From Deltaproteobacteria bacterium (GTDB lineage Bacteria; Myxococcota; Myxococcia; Myxococcales; SZAS-1): 61,231 nucleotides of DNA. The notes beneath the pieces are model-generated. The model saw nothing but the letters and a program-made list of their open reading frames with translations. It ran no database searches and was not told where the DNA came from. Position 1 is the stretch's first letter; the number at the start of each line of letters is the position of its first letter. This document shows, piece after piece, positions 3,860 through 18,357 of the stretch. The stretch is from assembly GCA_018266075.1 (NCBI GenBank), contig JAFEBB010000046.1, positions 1 through 61,231 on the forward strand, written 5' to 3'. Position numbers and translations under genes: made by a program.

Positions 3860-5488
3860 TCACTCTGCTGGCCTCGGCGAATCCCTCGGCGCCAGGGCGG
3901 CCGCTTGGTGCTCCGCCATCTCAGCCAGCCATCGGCCTCGCGCAGGTGGCACAGGCGCATCCGCGAGCAGGCCTCGCTGCGGCACGGCCTCGACGAGTTC
4001 CTCGCGCAGACCCAAACTCGCGAGGATGGCGTTCGCCGCGAGCAAACCACTCGCGTGGGCGGCCTCCATCAACATCGCCGGGAACGGCAGCCGAACCCAA
4101 TCGCCGGCGAGGTGAACACCCTCTTCTCCGCTCTCGGTGCCGGGACGCGCTGCATGCATGCCGACGTGAAACGCGGTGAAGTCTCGCTTGAGCTGAAGGT
4201 GCTCCGCTCGGATCGCGAGCCCCTGGAGCGCCGGAAATATGAGGCCGGCCTCGGCGATCAGCTGTGCCCGGATGGAGGCCTCGTCGAAGCCATCGGGCAC
4301 CGCATAGCAATGCAATTCGAGAACGGCGCCGCCGTGGCGGTCGACCCACCGCCGCGAGTCAGCCTCGAGCCGGTGTACGGCGGCTACGGCGTCGAGAAGC
4401 GTGTGTCGGTCGGTGATGACAAAGCCTGGGAGGTCTGCCGGGATGTCTCGGTCCGTCCAGAGGCGGAGAACGGCGTACGGCCTGCCTGCCCGGAGCGCGC
4501 TCCGATCCGGGAAGAGACTTGGCAGCCCCTGCGCACCGTCCATGATCTGCTTGGTCGCGGCTGCGTCGGCCGCGAGCACCACCTGATCGAAGGCCTCGCC
4601 ATTGATGCGCAGCGTGCCTGCCCGCTCGAGCTGCGCGACCGGCGTGTTCAAGCGCAGGCGAACGCCCAGCGCCTGGAGGTGCGAGCGGATCGGCAGGAGC
4701 AGCGACCGCTCGTACTCGTCCGCCGGGTACCCGTAGATCAGACCGCGATCATGGCTGAGGTAATAGAAATGAAAGCTCTTCACCAGCTCGGCGAGCGAGA
4801 GCTCGGACTCATGCGCGAAGAACGCTCGCGCAAAGGTGTTGAAAGCGGTCTTGAGTCCACGAGGCAGCGGCGCGACTGCGTCCAGATCGGCGAGCGAAAG
4901 ATGATCCAGCTCGCGATGCGTTCGAGTCGGGTCGTATTCGAGGAATAGGCCCATGAGGTCCCGCAACGGCGCTCGCAGGACCGGCGCGACAGGGAACGCT
5001 CCTCGCGCGGCGAGCGCGAGCAGGTTGAGTCCAGGGGCTTCCCGCCGACGTCCGAAGCGAAGCCGCTCTCCATTCCGCGCGATCACGACGTACTCGCCGA
5101 TGCTGCGATGCCGCGCTCGCAGGCCGAGACGGTCCAGAAAGCGGTTGAGGTTGTAGTAGTGGTCGAAGAAGGCGTGGAACCCGTGACTCACCCAAACTGA
5201 TTCCCCAGCCACGTCGACCGTCCAGGCGCCCAGCTTCCCGCCAAGGTACGGCTGCGCCTCAAAGAGGGTCACCGCGACACCACGGCGAGCCAGCGCCTCC
5301 GCGGCCGCGATGCCCGCAAGTCCTCCCCCAACGACCCCCACGGAGACGGGCTTGGTGGGGCGCTCGGGCTTCGCCGGATCCGGGCGCACCACCACAACGC
5401 GATAACTATGGAGTCGCCGTCGGATGAGCACGGGAAGCCCGAGGGCCAACCCCGCGAAGAACACAGCCGCGATGACGCATCCCACCAC
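3860..5488 (-). CDS. crtU: CrtU-like FAD carotenoid desaturase/methyltransferase (isorenieratene/chlorobactene synthase family)
   Basis: About 542 residues. A membrane segment lies at the N-terminus (VIAAVFFAGLALGLPVLI), then the FAD-binding fingerprint VGVVGGGLAGIAAAEALARR and LFEAQPYLGGKLG. The stretch HGFHAFFDHYYNLNRFLDR and the C-terminal LAGDWVRLPFPAMLMEA followed by SGLLAANAIL are what I recognise from CrtU/CruE enzymes, which turn a beta-ionone ring into an aromatic ring. The assignment rests on family resemblance; a phytoene-desaturase-like paralogue is the alternative. The start is uncertain: a frame continues up to a TTG at 5656, but GTG 5486-5488 begins just before the membrane helix and leaves a 206-base intergenic region. 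It is divergent from the sigma-like gene at 5695 and lies 13 kb from the main carotenoid cluster. Confidence 0.65.
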   Translation of the reverse strand: MVGCVIAAVFFAGLALGLPVLIRRRLHSYRVVVVRPDPAKPERPTKPVSVGVVGGGLAGIAAAEALARRGVAVTLFEAQPYLGGKLGAWTVDVAGESVWVSHGFHAFFDHYYNLNRFLDRLGLRARHRSIGEYVVIARNGERLRFGRRREAPGLNLLALAARGAFPVAPVLRAPLRDLMGLFLEYDPTRTHRELDHLSLADLDAVAPLPRGLKTAFNTFARAFFAHESELSLAELVKSFHFYYLSHDRGLIYGYPADEYERSLLLPIRSHLQALGVRLRLNTPVAQLERAGTLRINGEAFDQVVLAADAAATKQIMDGAQGLPSLFPDRSALRAGRPYAVLRLWTDRDIPADLPGFVITDRHTLLDAVAAVHRLEADSRRWVDRHGGAVLELHCYAVPDGFDEASIRAQLIAEAGLIFPALQGLAIRAEHLQLKRDFTAFHVGMHAARPGTESGEEGVHLAGDWVRLPFPAMLMEAAHASGLLAANAILASLGLREELVEAVPQRGLLADAPVPPARGRWLAEMAEHQAAALAPRDSPRPAE

Positions 5489-5625
5489 CTGGCCCTCGGA
5501 GCGAGCCAAGTGGGATGCATTGAGGGCAGCGACGTTGCGGCTCGACACGCGTCCGCCAACATCCCAGGGAGACAGAGCCTTTCGCGCGTGACTCGGACAG
5601 CGAGTCCAACTCCGACGAGAACCGG

Positions 5626-5654
5626 GAAACAGTTTTCCGAGGGTCGTCGTATCC
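5626..5654 (+). promoter_or_regulatory. ECF-type promoter motif I upstream of the sigma-like gene
   Basis: GAAACAGTTTTCCG, then CGTCGTATCC ending at 5654, about 40 bases before the GTG start at 5695. The same arrangement at identical spacing occurs on the minus strand at 17260-17288 before the CarQ-like ECF sigma gene; 23 of 29 positions match and both ends are perfectly conserved. This fits a -35/-10 pair of one ECF sigma factor. Confidence 0.6.
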
Positions 5655-5694: not shown

Positions 5695-6099
5695 GTGGAC
5701 AACATCCTTGAAGCTGTTGGCATCGACCGGGTGCTCTTGGCTGCGCGCGCGGGAGACGACGAGGCGCAGCGCGAGTTGGTGGAAAGCTACTCGCGCGGGG
5801 TCTACAACCTCGGCCGCGTGATTCTGGGATCCGAGTTGGCCGAGTCCGTGCTGCAGGAGGTGTTTCTCGCGGCGCTCACGCTTCCTTTGCCGGGCGGGCG
5901 GACAGGCAGGTGGCTGGCCGAGCTCGCCATGTCCGCTGTCCAGCGCCGCAAGCCTCTCACGCAGCTCGAGCGAAGCCGGGCAGCTCAGGTTCTGCGGCTC
6001 GGTCTGGGTCTCAGCGAGTCCGAGGCATGGGTTCTCACCCAGCCAGCAAACCCCGTACGTGTAGCGGCTCGCGTGTGGAGTGAGGCCGAGCTCGCATGA
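5695..6099 (+). CDS. Short sigma-factor-like protein with eroded region 4
   Basis: 134 residues from a GTG behind GGGAG. Residues about 12-80 clearly follow ECF sigma region 2: LLAARAGDDEAQRELVESY, then VYNLGRVILGSE and LQEVFLAAL. The C-terminal part keeps only a hint of region 4 (GLSESEAWVL) and lacks a convincing helix-turn-helix, so it may not bind -35 DNA. A clear paralogue is the gene at 15565-16026, third in the ECF1 operon. Both share GD-EAQ, VYNL-RV and VLQ. With an ECF-type promoter in front, it may be a modulator (decoy, anti-sigma binder, or partner) of the ECF1/NrsF pair. That role is inferred. A genuine minimal sigma factor remains possible. Confidence 0.65.
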   Translation: MDNILEAVGIDRVLLAARAGDDEAQRELVESYSRGVYNLGRVILGSELAESVLQEVFLAALTLPLPGGRTGRWLAELAMSAVQRRKPLTQLERSRAAQVLRLGLGLSESEAWVLTQPANPVRVAARVWSEAELA

Positions 6100-10237: not shown

Positions 10238-12460
<2,223 letters not shown>

Positions 12461-14965: not shown

Positions 14966-15568
14966 GTGCGTTCGAAATCCAAGAGGGCCAGGGGGCCGGC
15001 GGTGGTCCGGCGCGTGCTCGAGGTGACCCTCGAGGAGCTGGGTCGCGTCGGCTTTGCGCGGCTGAGCCTGCCCCACGTGGCTGAGCGCGCGGGGATCAAC
15101 AAGACCAGCCTCTACCGTCGGTGGGCCACGAAGGACGACCTGGTGAGCGCGGCGCTGGGCCTGGCCGTCCCGGTCGAAGGGGAGCTTCTCGAGCACGGCG
15201 ATCTGGAGCGAGACCTCGTGGAGCTCGCTTCGACGCTGGGCGCGTTCCTCGCTTCGCCGGCCGGGATGGGGCTGCTGCGCGCCGTGTTCGCGGACGGCGA
15301 CACCTCCCAGACCCGTCGGCTCTCGAGGACGATGTGGGGCGGCACCGCGCGAACGGCGCCCAGGCGCGTCCTCGAGCGAGCCGTGTCTCGCGGCGAGCTG
15401 CGTCGCGACGCGGATCTCGACCTGCTCCTCTTCACCGTTGCCGGTGCCGTGCTCCACCGCTGCTTCGTCGAGCGCCGGCCTGCCGACCGCCATTGGGCCC
15501 ATGGGCTCGTTCGACTGCTCGCGCAGGGCGTGGGCCCATCTCCGAAGCAGGCCACGCGGCGCGTCTAG
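14966..15568 (+). CDS. TetR-family repressor of the glycosyltransferase gene
   Basis: 200 residues from a GTG (VRSKSKRARG). The nearest ATG, at 14958, is out of frame. The N-terminal helix-turn-helix is typical: RRVLEVTLEELGRVGFARLS, VAERAGINKTSLYRRWATK. The C-terminal ligand domain is variable (GLLRAVFADGD, LLLFTVAGAVLHRCFVERRP). Two palindromic operators lie directly upstream. The stop overlaps by two bases the stop of the convergent sigma-like gene. The inducing ligand is unknown. Confidence 0.85.
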   Translation: MRSKSKRARGPAVVRRVLEVTLEELGRVGFARLSLPHVAERAGINKTSLYRRWATKDDLVSAALGLAVPVEGELLEHGDLERDLVELASTLGAFLASPAGMGLLRAVFADGDTSQTRRLSRTMWGGTARTAPRRVLERAVSRGELRRDADLDLLLFTVAGAVLHRCFVERRPADRHWAHGLVRLLAQGVGPSPKQATRRV

Positions 15569-16026
15569 CGAATCGCCTCCGCCGCCCGCGCCTGCGGTTC
15601 CCGGATCGAAGGCCGCTCCACCGAGAGGAGACGCGCTCGACGCAGCTCGCTGGCGAGGTCGGCCTCGTCGAGCACCCACGCGGCCTCGGCGAGCGAGAAG
15701 CGCAAGCCGTCCACGAGGAGCAGCGCCAGCCGCTGAATCAGGTTCGGTCCCGTGATGTCGCCCAGAGCGCGAAGCTGGCGCACCGCGAGCCGACCGAGCC
15801 AGAGATCGGTGCGATACGCGGGCAGCTCCGGGGCCTGGAGCGCCTCGAGCATCGTGCGCTGGAGCACCTGCTCCACCACGGCGCCATCGCTGAGCGCCAC
15901 CCGCGCCAGGTTGTAGACGGCCTTGGCGTGCCGGGCCACGAAGAGCCGCTGCGCTTCCGGGTCGCCCTGCCTCGAGGCGAGCAGCACCGCGTCTTGCTGC
16001 GCGAGGACGTCGAGATTTCGGGTCAT
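15565..16026 (-). CDS. Sigma-factor-like protein, third gene of the ECF1/anti-sigma operon
   Basis: 153 residues. Region-2-like start: LLASRQGDPEAQRLFVARH, AVYNLARVALSDGAVVEQVL. The C-terminal part keeps a faint region-4.2 outline (GLRFSLAEAAWVLDEADLAS then ELRRARLL) but without a normal recognition helix. It follows the NrsF-like anti-sigma gene by 24 bases and the ECF1 gene before that, so all three should be one transcript. Its paralogue at 5695-6099 lies next to crtU. In M. xanthus the equivalent third position of carQRS is the antirepressor CarS, which is unrelated in sequence. A role as antagonist or decoy of the anti-sigma is inferred. Confidence 0.65.
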   Translation of the reverse strand: MTRNLDVLAQQDAVLLASRQGDPEAQRLFVARHAKAVYNLARVALSDGAVVEQVLQRTMLEALQAPELPAYRTDLWLGRLAVRQLRALGDITGPNLIQRLALLLVDGLRFSLAEAAWVLDEADLASELRRARLLSVERPSIREPQARAAEAIR

Positions 16027-16050: not shown

Positions 16051-16698
16051 CTAGGGAGCAAAGGACGCAGGCCGCAGTCGCCGCGACACGGCCCAGGAGA
16101 GCGTGACGACCAGCAGCCACGCGGGGAGATGGAAGAGCGCCACGTGCCGCGCGCCCTGGCCACAAGCGAGCTCGCCGAGCGCCGCGCCGGGCACGCCGGC
16201 CGCGAGCCCGCCCGCGAGCGCGCGCCACACGCTCGGCGCCGCGACGCGCATGCGCCAGAGCACCACCGCCAGCGGCACCAGGTCCACGCCGAGGTGGCTC
16301 ACCGTGCAGACCCACTGCGGCAGCGGGCTGGTCAGCCCCGGACCACGCATCGCCACGATCGCGCAGATGGCCAGCGCGGCGCTGGCGAGCGCGAGCGCCG
16401 AGCGCGCCCGGGTCGGGGGCGCGATCGCTGCCCAACCGCCGAAGCCGACGGCCATCAGCAACAGCCCCACGTCCACGAAGCGCGCGGGCCCGACGTTCAC
16501 CGCCCAATTTCCAGCGAGCCCCAGCGCCCCGGCGAGCAACACGGTGAAGCCCGCGAGCCCCGCAACCAGGATCGCTGCATCGCGCCGCCACCGACGAGGC
16601 GGCTCCGCGAGCGCGGCCCCCAGCGCGCCGCGCACGCGCTGCAGCGCATCGGCGTTCAGGGCAGGCGTCGTCTGACGGGAGAGCTCTTCGGGAGTCAT
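16051..16698 (-). CDS. NrsF/CarR-like six-helix membrane anti-sigma factor
   Basis: 215 residues. After a short cytoplasmic N-terminus (MTPEELSRQTTPALNADAL) come about six hydrophobic segments, such as ILVAGLAGFTVLLAGALGLA, VDVGLLLMAVGFGGWAA, SALALASAALAICAIVAM, LVPLAVVLWRM and LPAWLLVVTLSWAV. Length and topology match the DUF1109/NrsF group, to which M. xanthus CarR is similar in layout. It starts inside the stop of the sigma gene (ATGA overlap), so the two are made in stoichiometric coupling. It should hold ECF1 at the inner membrane until a signal, perhaps singlet oxygen or membrane damage, releases it; that signal is inferred from CarR. Confidence 0.8.
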   Translation of the reverse strand: MTPEELSRQTTPALNADALQRVRGALGAALAEPPRRWRRDAAILVAGLAGFTVLLAGALGLAGNWAVNVGPARFVDVGLLLMAVGFGGWAAIAPPTRARSALALASAALAICAIVAMRGPGLTSPLPQWVCTVSHLGVDLVPLAVVLWRMRVAAPSVWRALAGGLAAGVPGAALGELACGQGARHVALFHLPAWLLVVTLSWAVSRRLRPASFAP

Positions 16699-17243
16699 GC
16701 GTCCTCCCGGAGATCGGCGAGCTTCTCGCGCAGCACCTCGTAGCCGCGGTGGGCCCGGATGCGGACGGCCGTCGCGGTGGCGCCCAACATCGTCGCCAGC
16801 TCCTCGAAGGTGAAGCCCATCAGGTGGTGCAGCACCACCGCCTCGCGCTGGGCCAGCGGGAGCGATTGCAGCGCGCCCTCCAGCCGGCGGCGCAGCACGG
16901 GATCGGCGGGCGCCGTCGCGTCGGCTTCGTGGGTGAGCGCCTGCTCGTCCTCGGGCGAGGCTGCGGGCGAGCGCTGCCGCACCCGCAGGGCATCGCGGGC
17001 GGCGTTGGCGGCGATGGCGAAGAGCCAGGGCGCGACCTTCGAGCGGCGGTCGAAGCGGTCGCGCGAGCGGATAACAGAGACGAACGTGGTCTGAAGGAGG
17101 TCCTCCGCCAAGGCCGCGTCTCCGGTGACGCGGGCCAGGAACCCGTGCAGCTCGGGGGCGCGACGCGTGTACAGGGCGTCGAGCGCGGTCGTGTCGCCTT
17201 GGCAGAAACGTTCCATCAGGTCTTCGTCGGTCGGCGTGCCCAT
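16695..17243 (-). CDS. ECF sigma factor (ECF1, CarQ-like context)
   Basis: 182 residues. Region 2 is seen in ALYTRRAPELHGFLARVTGD, AEDLLQTTFVSVIRSRDRFD and APWLFAIAANAARDALR. Region 4 is seen in LPLAQREAVVLHHLMGFTFE followed by ELATMLGATATAVRIRAHRG. It should direct transcription of a small regulon including itself. The promoter motif I lies immediately upstream on the same strand (17260-17288). That would give a very short leader, and no Shine-Dalgarno is visible, so translation may be nearly leaderless. The overlapping NrsF-like gene is its likely anti-sigma factor. I do not call it carQ outright because CarS is absent from the operon. Confidence 0.88.
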   Translation of the reverse strand: MGTPTDEDLMERFCQGDTTALDALYTRRAPELHGFLARVTGDAALAEDLLQTTFVSVIRSRDRFDRRSKVAPWLFAIAANAARDALRVRQRSPAASPEDEQALTHEADATAPADPVLRRRLEGALQSLPLAQREAVVLHHLMGFTFEELATMLGATATAVRIRAHRGYEVLREKLADLREDA

Positions 17244-17259: not shown

Positions 17260-17288
17260 GGATACGACGGGTCCCGAAAAAGTGTTTC
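17260..17288 (-). promoter_or_regulatory. ECF-type promoter motif I upstream of ECF1
   Basis: On the minus strand: GAAACACTTTTTCG, then CGTCGTATCC. It ends 16 bases before the ECF1 start and matches the copy at 5626-5654 in spacing and in 23 of 29 bases. Autoregulation by ECF1 is the simplest reading. Confidence 0.6.
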
Positions 17289-17415: not shown

Positions 17416-18033
17416 TTGAGCCCCCTCCGCGAAACCACTCCCACCGACGATGCCGTCCTCGTGGAGCGCGCCCGCGACGGGCAGCCGGGCGCCTTCGAGG
17501 CGCTGGTTCGACGGCACTCCGGCCGGGTGTACCGCCTGGCCCTGCGCATGACGGGAAGCGCGCAGGACGCGGAGGAGATCACCCAGGAGACGTTCCTCTC
17601 GGCGCACCAGGGGCTCGCCCGCTTCCGCGGTGAGGCCGCGGTCACCAGCTGGCTCCACCGCATCGCCGCCAACTTCGCGCTCATGCGACTGCGTCACCGA
17701 AGGATCTCGGGAGCGGCGGAGGAGCAGCTCACCCAGAGCGTGGGCCCACACGAGGACCGCGCGCCGCCCGCCTATCCGATCGCGCAGGCGAGCGTGCACA
17801 CCGAGCAGCACCTGCTCGACGTGGAGCTGCGGCGCGCCATCGAACAGGCCGTCGACCGCCTGCCCGACGAGTACCGGGTGGTCTTCTTGCTTCGCGATGT
17901 GGAGGACCTCTCGTACGAGGAGATCGCCGAGGCCACCTCGAGCACCGTGCCGGCGATCAAGAGCCGGCTTCACCGGGCGCGGCTCGCGCTCCGGCAAGCC
18001 ATTCAGGACTTTTACGCCGAGCACCCGCGCTGA
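17416..18033 (+). CDS. RpoE-like ECF sigma factor (ECF2)
   Basis: 205 residues; the start is a TTG (MSPLRETTPTDD), with no better in-frame choice. Region 2: AFEALVRRHSGRVYRLALRM, AEEITQETFLSAHQGLARF, SWLHRIAANFALMRLRHRR. Region 4: LPDEYRVVFLLRDVEDLSYE, then EIAEATSSTVPAIKSRLHRA. The linker between regions (about residues 100-135) is long. It is followed after 57 bases by a zinc-finger anti-sigma gene, the usual RpoE/RseA-type arrangement. Motif II upstream suggests it transcribes itself, the hydrolase gene at 29341 and perhaps the crt operon. Confidence 0.9.
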   Translation: MSPLRETTPTDDAVLVERARDGQPGAFEALVRRHSGRVYRLALRMTGSAQDAEEITQETFLSAHQGLARFRGEAAVTSWLHRIAANFALMRLRHRRISGAAEEQLTQSVGPHEDRAPPAYPIAQASVHTEQHLLDVELRRAIEQAVDRLPDEYRVVFLLRDVEDLSYEEIAEATSSTVPAIKSRLHRARLALRQAIQDFYAEHPR

Positions 18034-18090: not shown

Positions 18091-18357
18091 ATGTCGTCTC
18101 AACGCCCAGCCTCGACGTCCATCGCCTCCTGCGCAGAGGTCGACGCCAAGCTCTTCGAGCTCACCGAGAACGAGCTGCCCGCGGCTGAGACCGAGCGGCT
18201 CATGGCGCACGCGCGTGGATGCGCGGGGTGTGCGGACCTCGTGGAGAGCTACAGGGCCACGCCCGTTCTTGCCCGCCGGGTGCTGCTCGAGGACGTCCCG
18301 GTCGATGTGACCGAGCGGCTGCTCGGCGTCATCGCGCAGAACGTGAATCGGAAGTAG
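18091..18357 (+). CDS. Zinc-finger anti-sigma factor for ECF2
   Basis: 88 residues, cytoplasmic, with no membrane segment. The zinc-binding anti-sigma pattern is clear: CAEVDAKLFELTENELPAAE, then RLMAHARGCAGCADLVESY with H-x3-C-x2-C. It should bind ECF2 and release it on oxidation or metal loss. The last 29 bases overlap the 3' end of the convergent crtYd gene, so the two transcripts are antisense at their ends. Confidence 0.85.
   Translation: MSSQRPASTSIASCAEVDAKLFELTENELPAAETERLMAHARGCAGCADLVESYRATPVLARRVLLEDVPVDVTERLLGVIAQNVNRK

Follow-up and report, generated by a model that had tools for sequence, protein, structure and literature searches.

Among ECF sigma factors CarQ was one of the founding members. 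Its regulon is known mainly from Myxococcus, in which CarQ drives carQRS and crtI. In that genus blue light, singlet oxygen and plasmalogens lead CarR to release CarQ. The promoters P_QRS and P_I have both been published, the crtI promoter P_I being CarQ-dependent (PMC8156234), and within the suborder carR and carS are reported to occur in every case with carQ (PMC9304148).

Two further kinds of system are informative in understanding the locus described here. EcfF-OsrA of Bradyrhizobium and BcrS-AbcS of Brucella combine an ECF16 factor with a DUF1109 anti-sigma factor (PMC3420878, PMC8315932). They share with the present locus the six-helix membrane class of anti-sigma factor and methionine sulfoxide reductase targets, EcfF is autoregulated, and the promoters (GTAAC-N14 to N17-CGA/T) have a similar form; the -35 and -10 letters are different, the hosts are alphaproteobacterial, and the available parts of those papers report no extra sigma-like genes. 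PhyR-NepR-EcfG likewise has, next to a sigma/anti-sigma pair, a sigma-like protein whose DNA recognition is eroded, and the predicted folds are similar. Unlike PhyR, the two sigma-like proteins of our locus, SL1 and SL2 (153 and 134 aa), have no receiver domain by Pfam, the anti-sigma factor is a membrane protein, and their interaction with an anti-sigma factor is putative.

The window analyzed here is the whole 61,231-nt stretch of contig JAFEBB010000046.1 (assembly GCA_018266075.1, a member of the Myxococcales). It resembles the M. xanthus regulon in its CarQ-CarR pair, in the presence of CarF in the genome, in its GGAAAC...CGT elements, and in having an apparently autoregulated carQ promoter and a second, unlinked target. 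It differs in that the second target would be SL2 (possibly the FAD-oxidoreductase gene too) and the third msrA, in the absence of carS, in a spacing of N17 rather than N16, and in that no strong CarQ-type site precedes crtI in the window. We consider it probable (about 0.85) that the shared motif is the promoter recognized by ECF1/CarQ, serving carQ-carR-SL1 (site 2), SL2 (site 1) and msrA (a third site).

The carQ-carR operon

The genes and sites of the operon and its immediate neighborhood are as follows.

16695..17243, minus strand: carQ (ECF1), an ECF sigma factor with regions 2 and 4 intact
16051..16698, minus strand: carR, a membrane protein of 215 residues and CarR anti-sigma orthologue, overlapping carQ at an ATGA
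15565..16026, minus strand: SL1, a sigma-like protein, third gene of the carQ operon
17260..17288, minus strand: site 2, a P_QRS-like promoter of the carQ operon, with -35 GAAAC and -10 CGTATCC
17416..18033, plus strand: ECF2, another complete ECF sigma factor, encoded divergently from carQ
18091..18357, plus strand: a zf-HC2 protein and presumed anti-sigma factor for ECF2

ECF1 is 50-57% identical to the CarQ proteins of relatives, in which the CarR gene directly follows this sigma gene. CarR orthologues were found in 28 of 79 relatives, nearly all of one family (identity about 38-46% in full-length matches); the named ones belong to Myxococcus, Corallococcus, Pyxidicoccus, Archangium and similar genera, and in nearly all of these named loci the third gene is recognizably CarS. 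The CarR protein of this genome is about 40-43% identical to its myxococcal orthologues and matches no Pfam or NCBIfam model. Because of the identity, the adjacency and CarS as third gene in the relatives, we regard ECF1 and its partner as CarQ and CarR, and what the initial annotation had called a CarQ-like operon is headed by a CarQ orthologue translationally coupled to a CarR orthologue. By sequence orthology and its coupling to carQ, CarR is the predicted anti-sigma factor of CarQ.

Two CarQ-type promoters in the window

Site 1 lies far from the operon, ahead of a gene encoding a paralogue of SL1, with a divergent gene on its other side. A gene for a large peroxidase-family (KatG-like) protein is found between sites 1 and 2 (10238-12421, minus strand).

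5626..5654, plus strand: site 1, a CarQ-type promoter reading toward SL2, with -35 GAAAC at 5626-5630, a T-tract, and -10 CGTATCC at 5648-5654
5695..6099, plus strand: SL2, a degenerate ECF-sigma-like protein behind site 1, with a GTG start and a GGGAG ribosome site
5608..5637, minus strand: possible weak divergent version of the promoter, AAAACTGTTTCCCGGTTCTCGTCGGA, with three mismatches, pointing to the FAD-oxidoreductase gene
3860..5491, minus strand: FAD-dependent amine-oxidase/desaturase-superfamily protein, start probably GTG at ~5490

Site 1 (GAAACAGTTTTCCGAGGGTCGTCGTATCC) ends 40 nt ahead of the GTG at 5695, and site 2 (GAAACACTTTTTCGGGACCCGTCGTATCC, 17288-17260 on the minus strand) ends 16 nt ahead of the ATG at 17243. 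The initial annotation had described a paired motif with the same spacing at these distances from the two genes, matching at 23 of 29 bases with the conserved bases at the ends, and both sites were recovered just so: they are identical at positions 1-6, 8-11 and 20-29, and the divergent middle (12-19) agrees at three of eight positions. Under an independent-base model, the number of chance matches to site 2 of at least 23/29 is expected to be 7e-5 for the window and 0.009 for the genome; the best match in the window after site 1 reaches 18/29. We also scored some 122,000 window positions with a matrix trained on the carQ and crtI promoters of 17 relatives and on nothing from the window. Site 1 ranked first (26.0) and site 2 second (22.3), the next position scoring 14.2 and the training sites 23.6-33.1, and the ranking of the two sites also holds with spacing +1 alone.

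The register of the -10 is ambiguous in sites 1 and 2, which can be read as N17 to CGTA or as N14 to CGTC. The former is preferred, since the third genomic copy (below) has CGTA and no CGTC, and the natural -10 to go with the -35 GAAAC would then be CGTATCC (GAAAC-N17-CGTA).

Site 1 and the divergent version share one -35, the inverted repeat GGAAA-N4-TTTCC. The latter has the same spacing as site 1 and ranks 3-4 in the window by the matrix, a rank that is not independent of site 1. The divergent version is partly automatic because the -35 is palindromic, and we therefore put the probability that it is a real, weak promoter for the FAD-oxidoreductase gene at only about one in three. The label crtU, under which the initial annotation had placed this region, was not borne out; by domain the product can be placed only as an FAD enzyme of the amine-oxidase/desaturase superfamily.

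The promoter in relatives

The pattern GGAAAC-NN-TTTCC...CCGTMS stands about 17 nt ahead of the carQ start in 23 of the 25 loci from relatives that we inspected; L066 has TGAAAC at the same place and L057 has none. By this footprint, the promoter upstream of carQ is conserved across the Myxococcaceae. Five more distant carQ loci (L075, L078, L082, L084 and L091) have GAAAC-N16/17-CGTA, mostly without the T-tract. Nearly all relatives have N16 (GAAAC-N16-CGTA/C) and one has N17, compared with N17 to CGTA or N14 to CGTC in the present genome. The letters of M. xanthus P_QRS were compared through the relatives' genomes.

When the relatives' pattern is searched with zero mismatches, it picks out in several genomes the promoter of carQ together with one other site. 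In two genomes (L126 and L127) this other site is upstream of crtI, and the pattern does report CarQ targets, since these matches agree with the published P_I (PMC8156234). In three genomes of a single genus (L129, L140 and L141; genus g24) it lies ahead of a MotA/TolQ/ExbB-family gene, which may be a CarQ target that has so far gone unreported.

A third genomic copy upstream of msrA

The genome-wide search proposed with the original observation was run as a pattern search: across the whole 7.84-Mb genome and with as many as three mismatches allowed, the shared pattern occurs only at sites 1 and 2, and the reversed-pattern control gives 0. The shorter core GAAACNNTTTT-N11-CGTA (GAAACNNTTTTN11CGTA) has exactly three copies genome-wide, against 0.006-0.13 expected, namely site 1, site 2 and one on another contig, each of them a short distance ahead of a start codon and oriented with the gene. 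This list is complete because any such site misses at most the three CGT letters; the three-mismatch matches in the search that produced it number 13, against 7 for the reversed control, and are mostly background.

Contig C6:162482-162507 (locus L005), minus strand: third core copy, beginning 52 nt before the ATG and lying 26 nt upstream of it

The gene behind this copy has a strong ribosome site (AAGGAGGT) and encodes an apparent signal peptide followed by an MsrA domain (E 3e-60), that is, an exported methionine sulfoxide reductase. Its biological fit played no part in finding the site. In the related DUF1109-type systems EcfF-OsrA and BcrS-AbcS, methionine sulfoxide reductases are controlled from similar promoters (PMC3420878, PMC8315932), and msrA would be a sensible third target of CarQ.

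The proposal of the initial annotation, that ECF1 reads its own operon and the gene of a distant sigma-like paralogue, thus finds support in comparative evidence of several kinds: orthology, the footprint in relatives, the recovery of crtI, the near-uniqueness of the sites, their position and orientation, and the msrA target.

CarS, CarF and photoreceptors

No CarS was found in the genome, which is 96.6% complete; three relatives in the same search gave CarS at E<1e-40. The position of carS in the operon is occupied by SL1. Three other loci (L075, L078 and L082) have CarQ-CarR pairs apparently without carS, and the gene after carR, by its translation, is methyltransferase-like in L075 and glutathione peroxidase-like in L078.

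Contig C28:19565-20086 (locus L143): CarF-type plasmalogen desaturase homologue (PF10520, E 1e-56)

With this homologue present, the genome may also possess the singlet-oxygen arm known from Myxococcus. A search for CarH/CarA through the B12-binding domain gave six matches, none of which seemed, by our reading, to be a CarH-type repressor.

The sigma-like genes SL1 and SL2

SL1 and SL2 are paralogues (44% identical over ~110 residues), and their codon-position G+C is coding-like. No recognizable orthologue of either was found in 195 Myxococcota genomes (79 also searched), and no sister genome holds SL genes. The other matches in these searches are apparently ordinary ECF factors (long frames matched in region 2 only); the best outside match, L102, proved to be a complete ECF gene with another gene behind it.

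Both proteins keep the sigma-2 core, with Pfam region 2 recognizable but below the cut-off and no Pfam match to region 4. In alignment the inter-domain linker is lost, and much of 2.3-2.4 and of the DNA-recognition segments of region 4 is eroded. With neither significant regions 2 and 4 nor recognition helices, SL1 and SL2 would not be expected to act as functional ECF sigma factors. AlphaFold models built on two-sequence alignments (pLDDT 79.7 for SL1, 83.8 for SL2) match ECF factors. From the same two-sequence alignment, the SL1 model is compact and closest to anti-sigma-bound SigW (Z 15.6, 134 aligned), followed by CnrH (15.0) and PhyR-NepR (13.4), and the SL2 model matches CnrH best (Z 10.8), with lower scores and a poorer fit than SL1. 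Around SL2, neither a sigma-70 promoter nor a terminator was found.

Our leading guess is that SL1 and SL2 would be decoys on an anti-sigma factor, CarR or another, and not active sigma factors. The version that we find most attractive, though still tentative, is that they mimic a sigma factor toward CarR, either by binding it or by competing for it with CarQ, and thereby sharpen or prolong the response; this would be positive feedback by titration, PhyR-like without a receiver domain, and it is compatible with the promoter explanation. Both genes stand under CarQ-type promoters, SL1 lies within the carR operon, and a retained sigma-2 core with eroded DNA-recognition segments and, in the SL1 model, a predicted fold nearest SigW, CnrH and PhyR-NepR would fit such a mimic. 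Against this, the models rest on two sequences and AlphaFold is biased to known sigma folds, and the SL sequences are no closer to CarQ than to ECF2. A profile of ECF2-like factors had seemed to place their origin there (43 bits vs 16 for CarQ), but it was biased by loci fetched through SL1/SL2 similarity; without these loci the scores are 18.6 and 16.0 bits, and the difference vanishes. A further step, in which CarS has been replaced by a CarQ-induced pair of sigma decoys, with PhyR-like mimicry acting through expression level and not phosphorylation, we hold to be somewhat unlikely.

Still less likely is that SL1 and SL2 titrate the presumed zf-HC2 anti-sigma factor of ECF2, so that a second regulon is wired to the CarQ response. 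The genes for ECF2 and this zf-HC2 protein adjoin carQ, and a BLAST search with SL1 finds ECF2 (36% over 75 aa) and not CarQ; however, the similarity is weak, falling mostly within region 2, and no strong CarQ-type site lies upstream of ECF2.

The proposed CarQ circuit

In the circuit that we propose, CarR would release CarQ in response to light or singlet oxygen. CarQ-RNA polymerase would then bind site 2 and transcribe carQ-carR-SL1. At site 1 it would transcribe SL2, with perhaps weaker transcription of the divergent FAD-oxidoreductase gene, and it would bind the site on contig C6 and transcribe the exported methionine sulfoxide reductase gene.

Recognition of the sites by some ECF factor other than CarQ, such as ECF2, is improbable. 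Other ECF factors of similar specificity may be present in the genome, GAAAC/CGTA-like elements are common in ECF promoters, and ECF2 shares one divergent intergenic region with carQ; yet the footprint tracks carQ in the relatives and includes crtI, a known CarQ target. That site 1 is due to chance, or came along without function when SL1 was duplicated, is very improbable even given the paralogy of SL1 and SL2, since site 2 is upstream of carQ and not beside SL1 and so would be left behind if SL1 were simply duplicated, and since the middle bases have diverged while the ends are kept and the msrA site has the same core.

By its sequence, the promoter read here by CarQ, as we propose, belongs to the already known CarQ-dependent (P_QRS/P_I) type. 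Sigma-like genes under CarQ-type control in place of carS are more unusual than the shared promoter. The circuit that we infer varies the known one in a new way: a CarQ-CarR pair without CarS, two sigma-like genes with CarQ-type promoters, and an msrA target. It would be a small and testable regulon (carQ-carR-SL1, SL2 and msrA) that links the CarQ system with the methionine-sulfoxide repair known from other DUF1109 systems, and the sigma-like proteins in the place of CarS raise the question of whether sigma mimicry evolved there.
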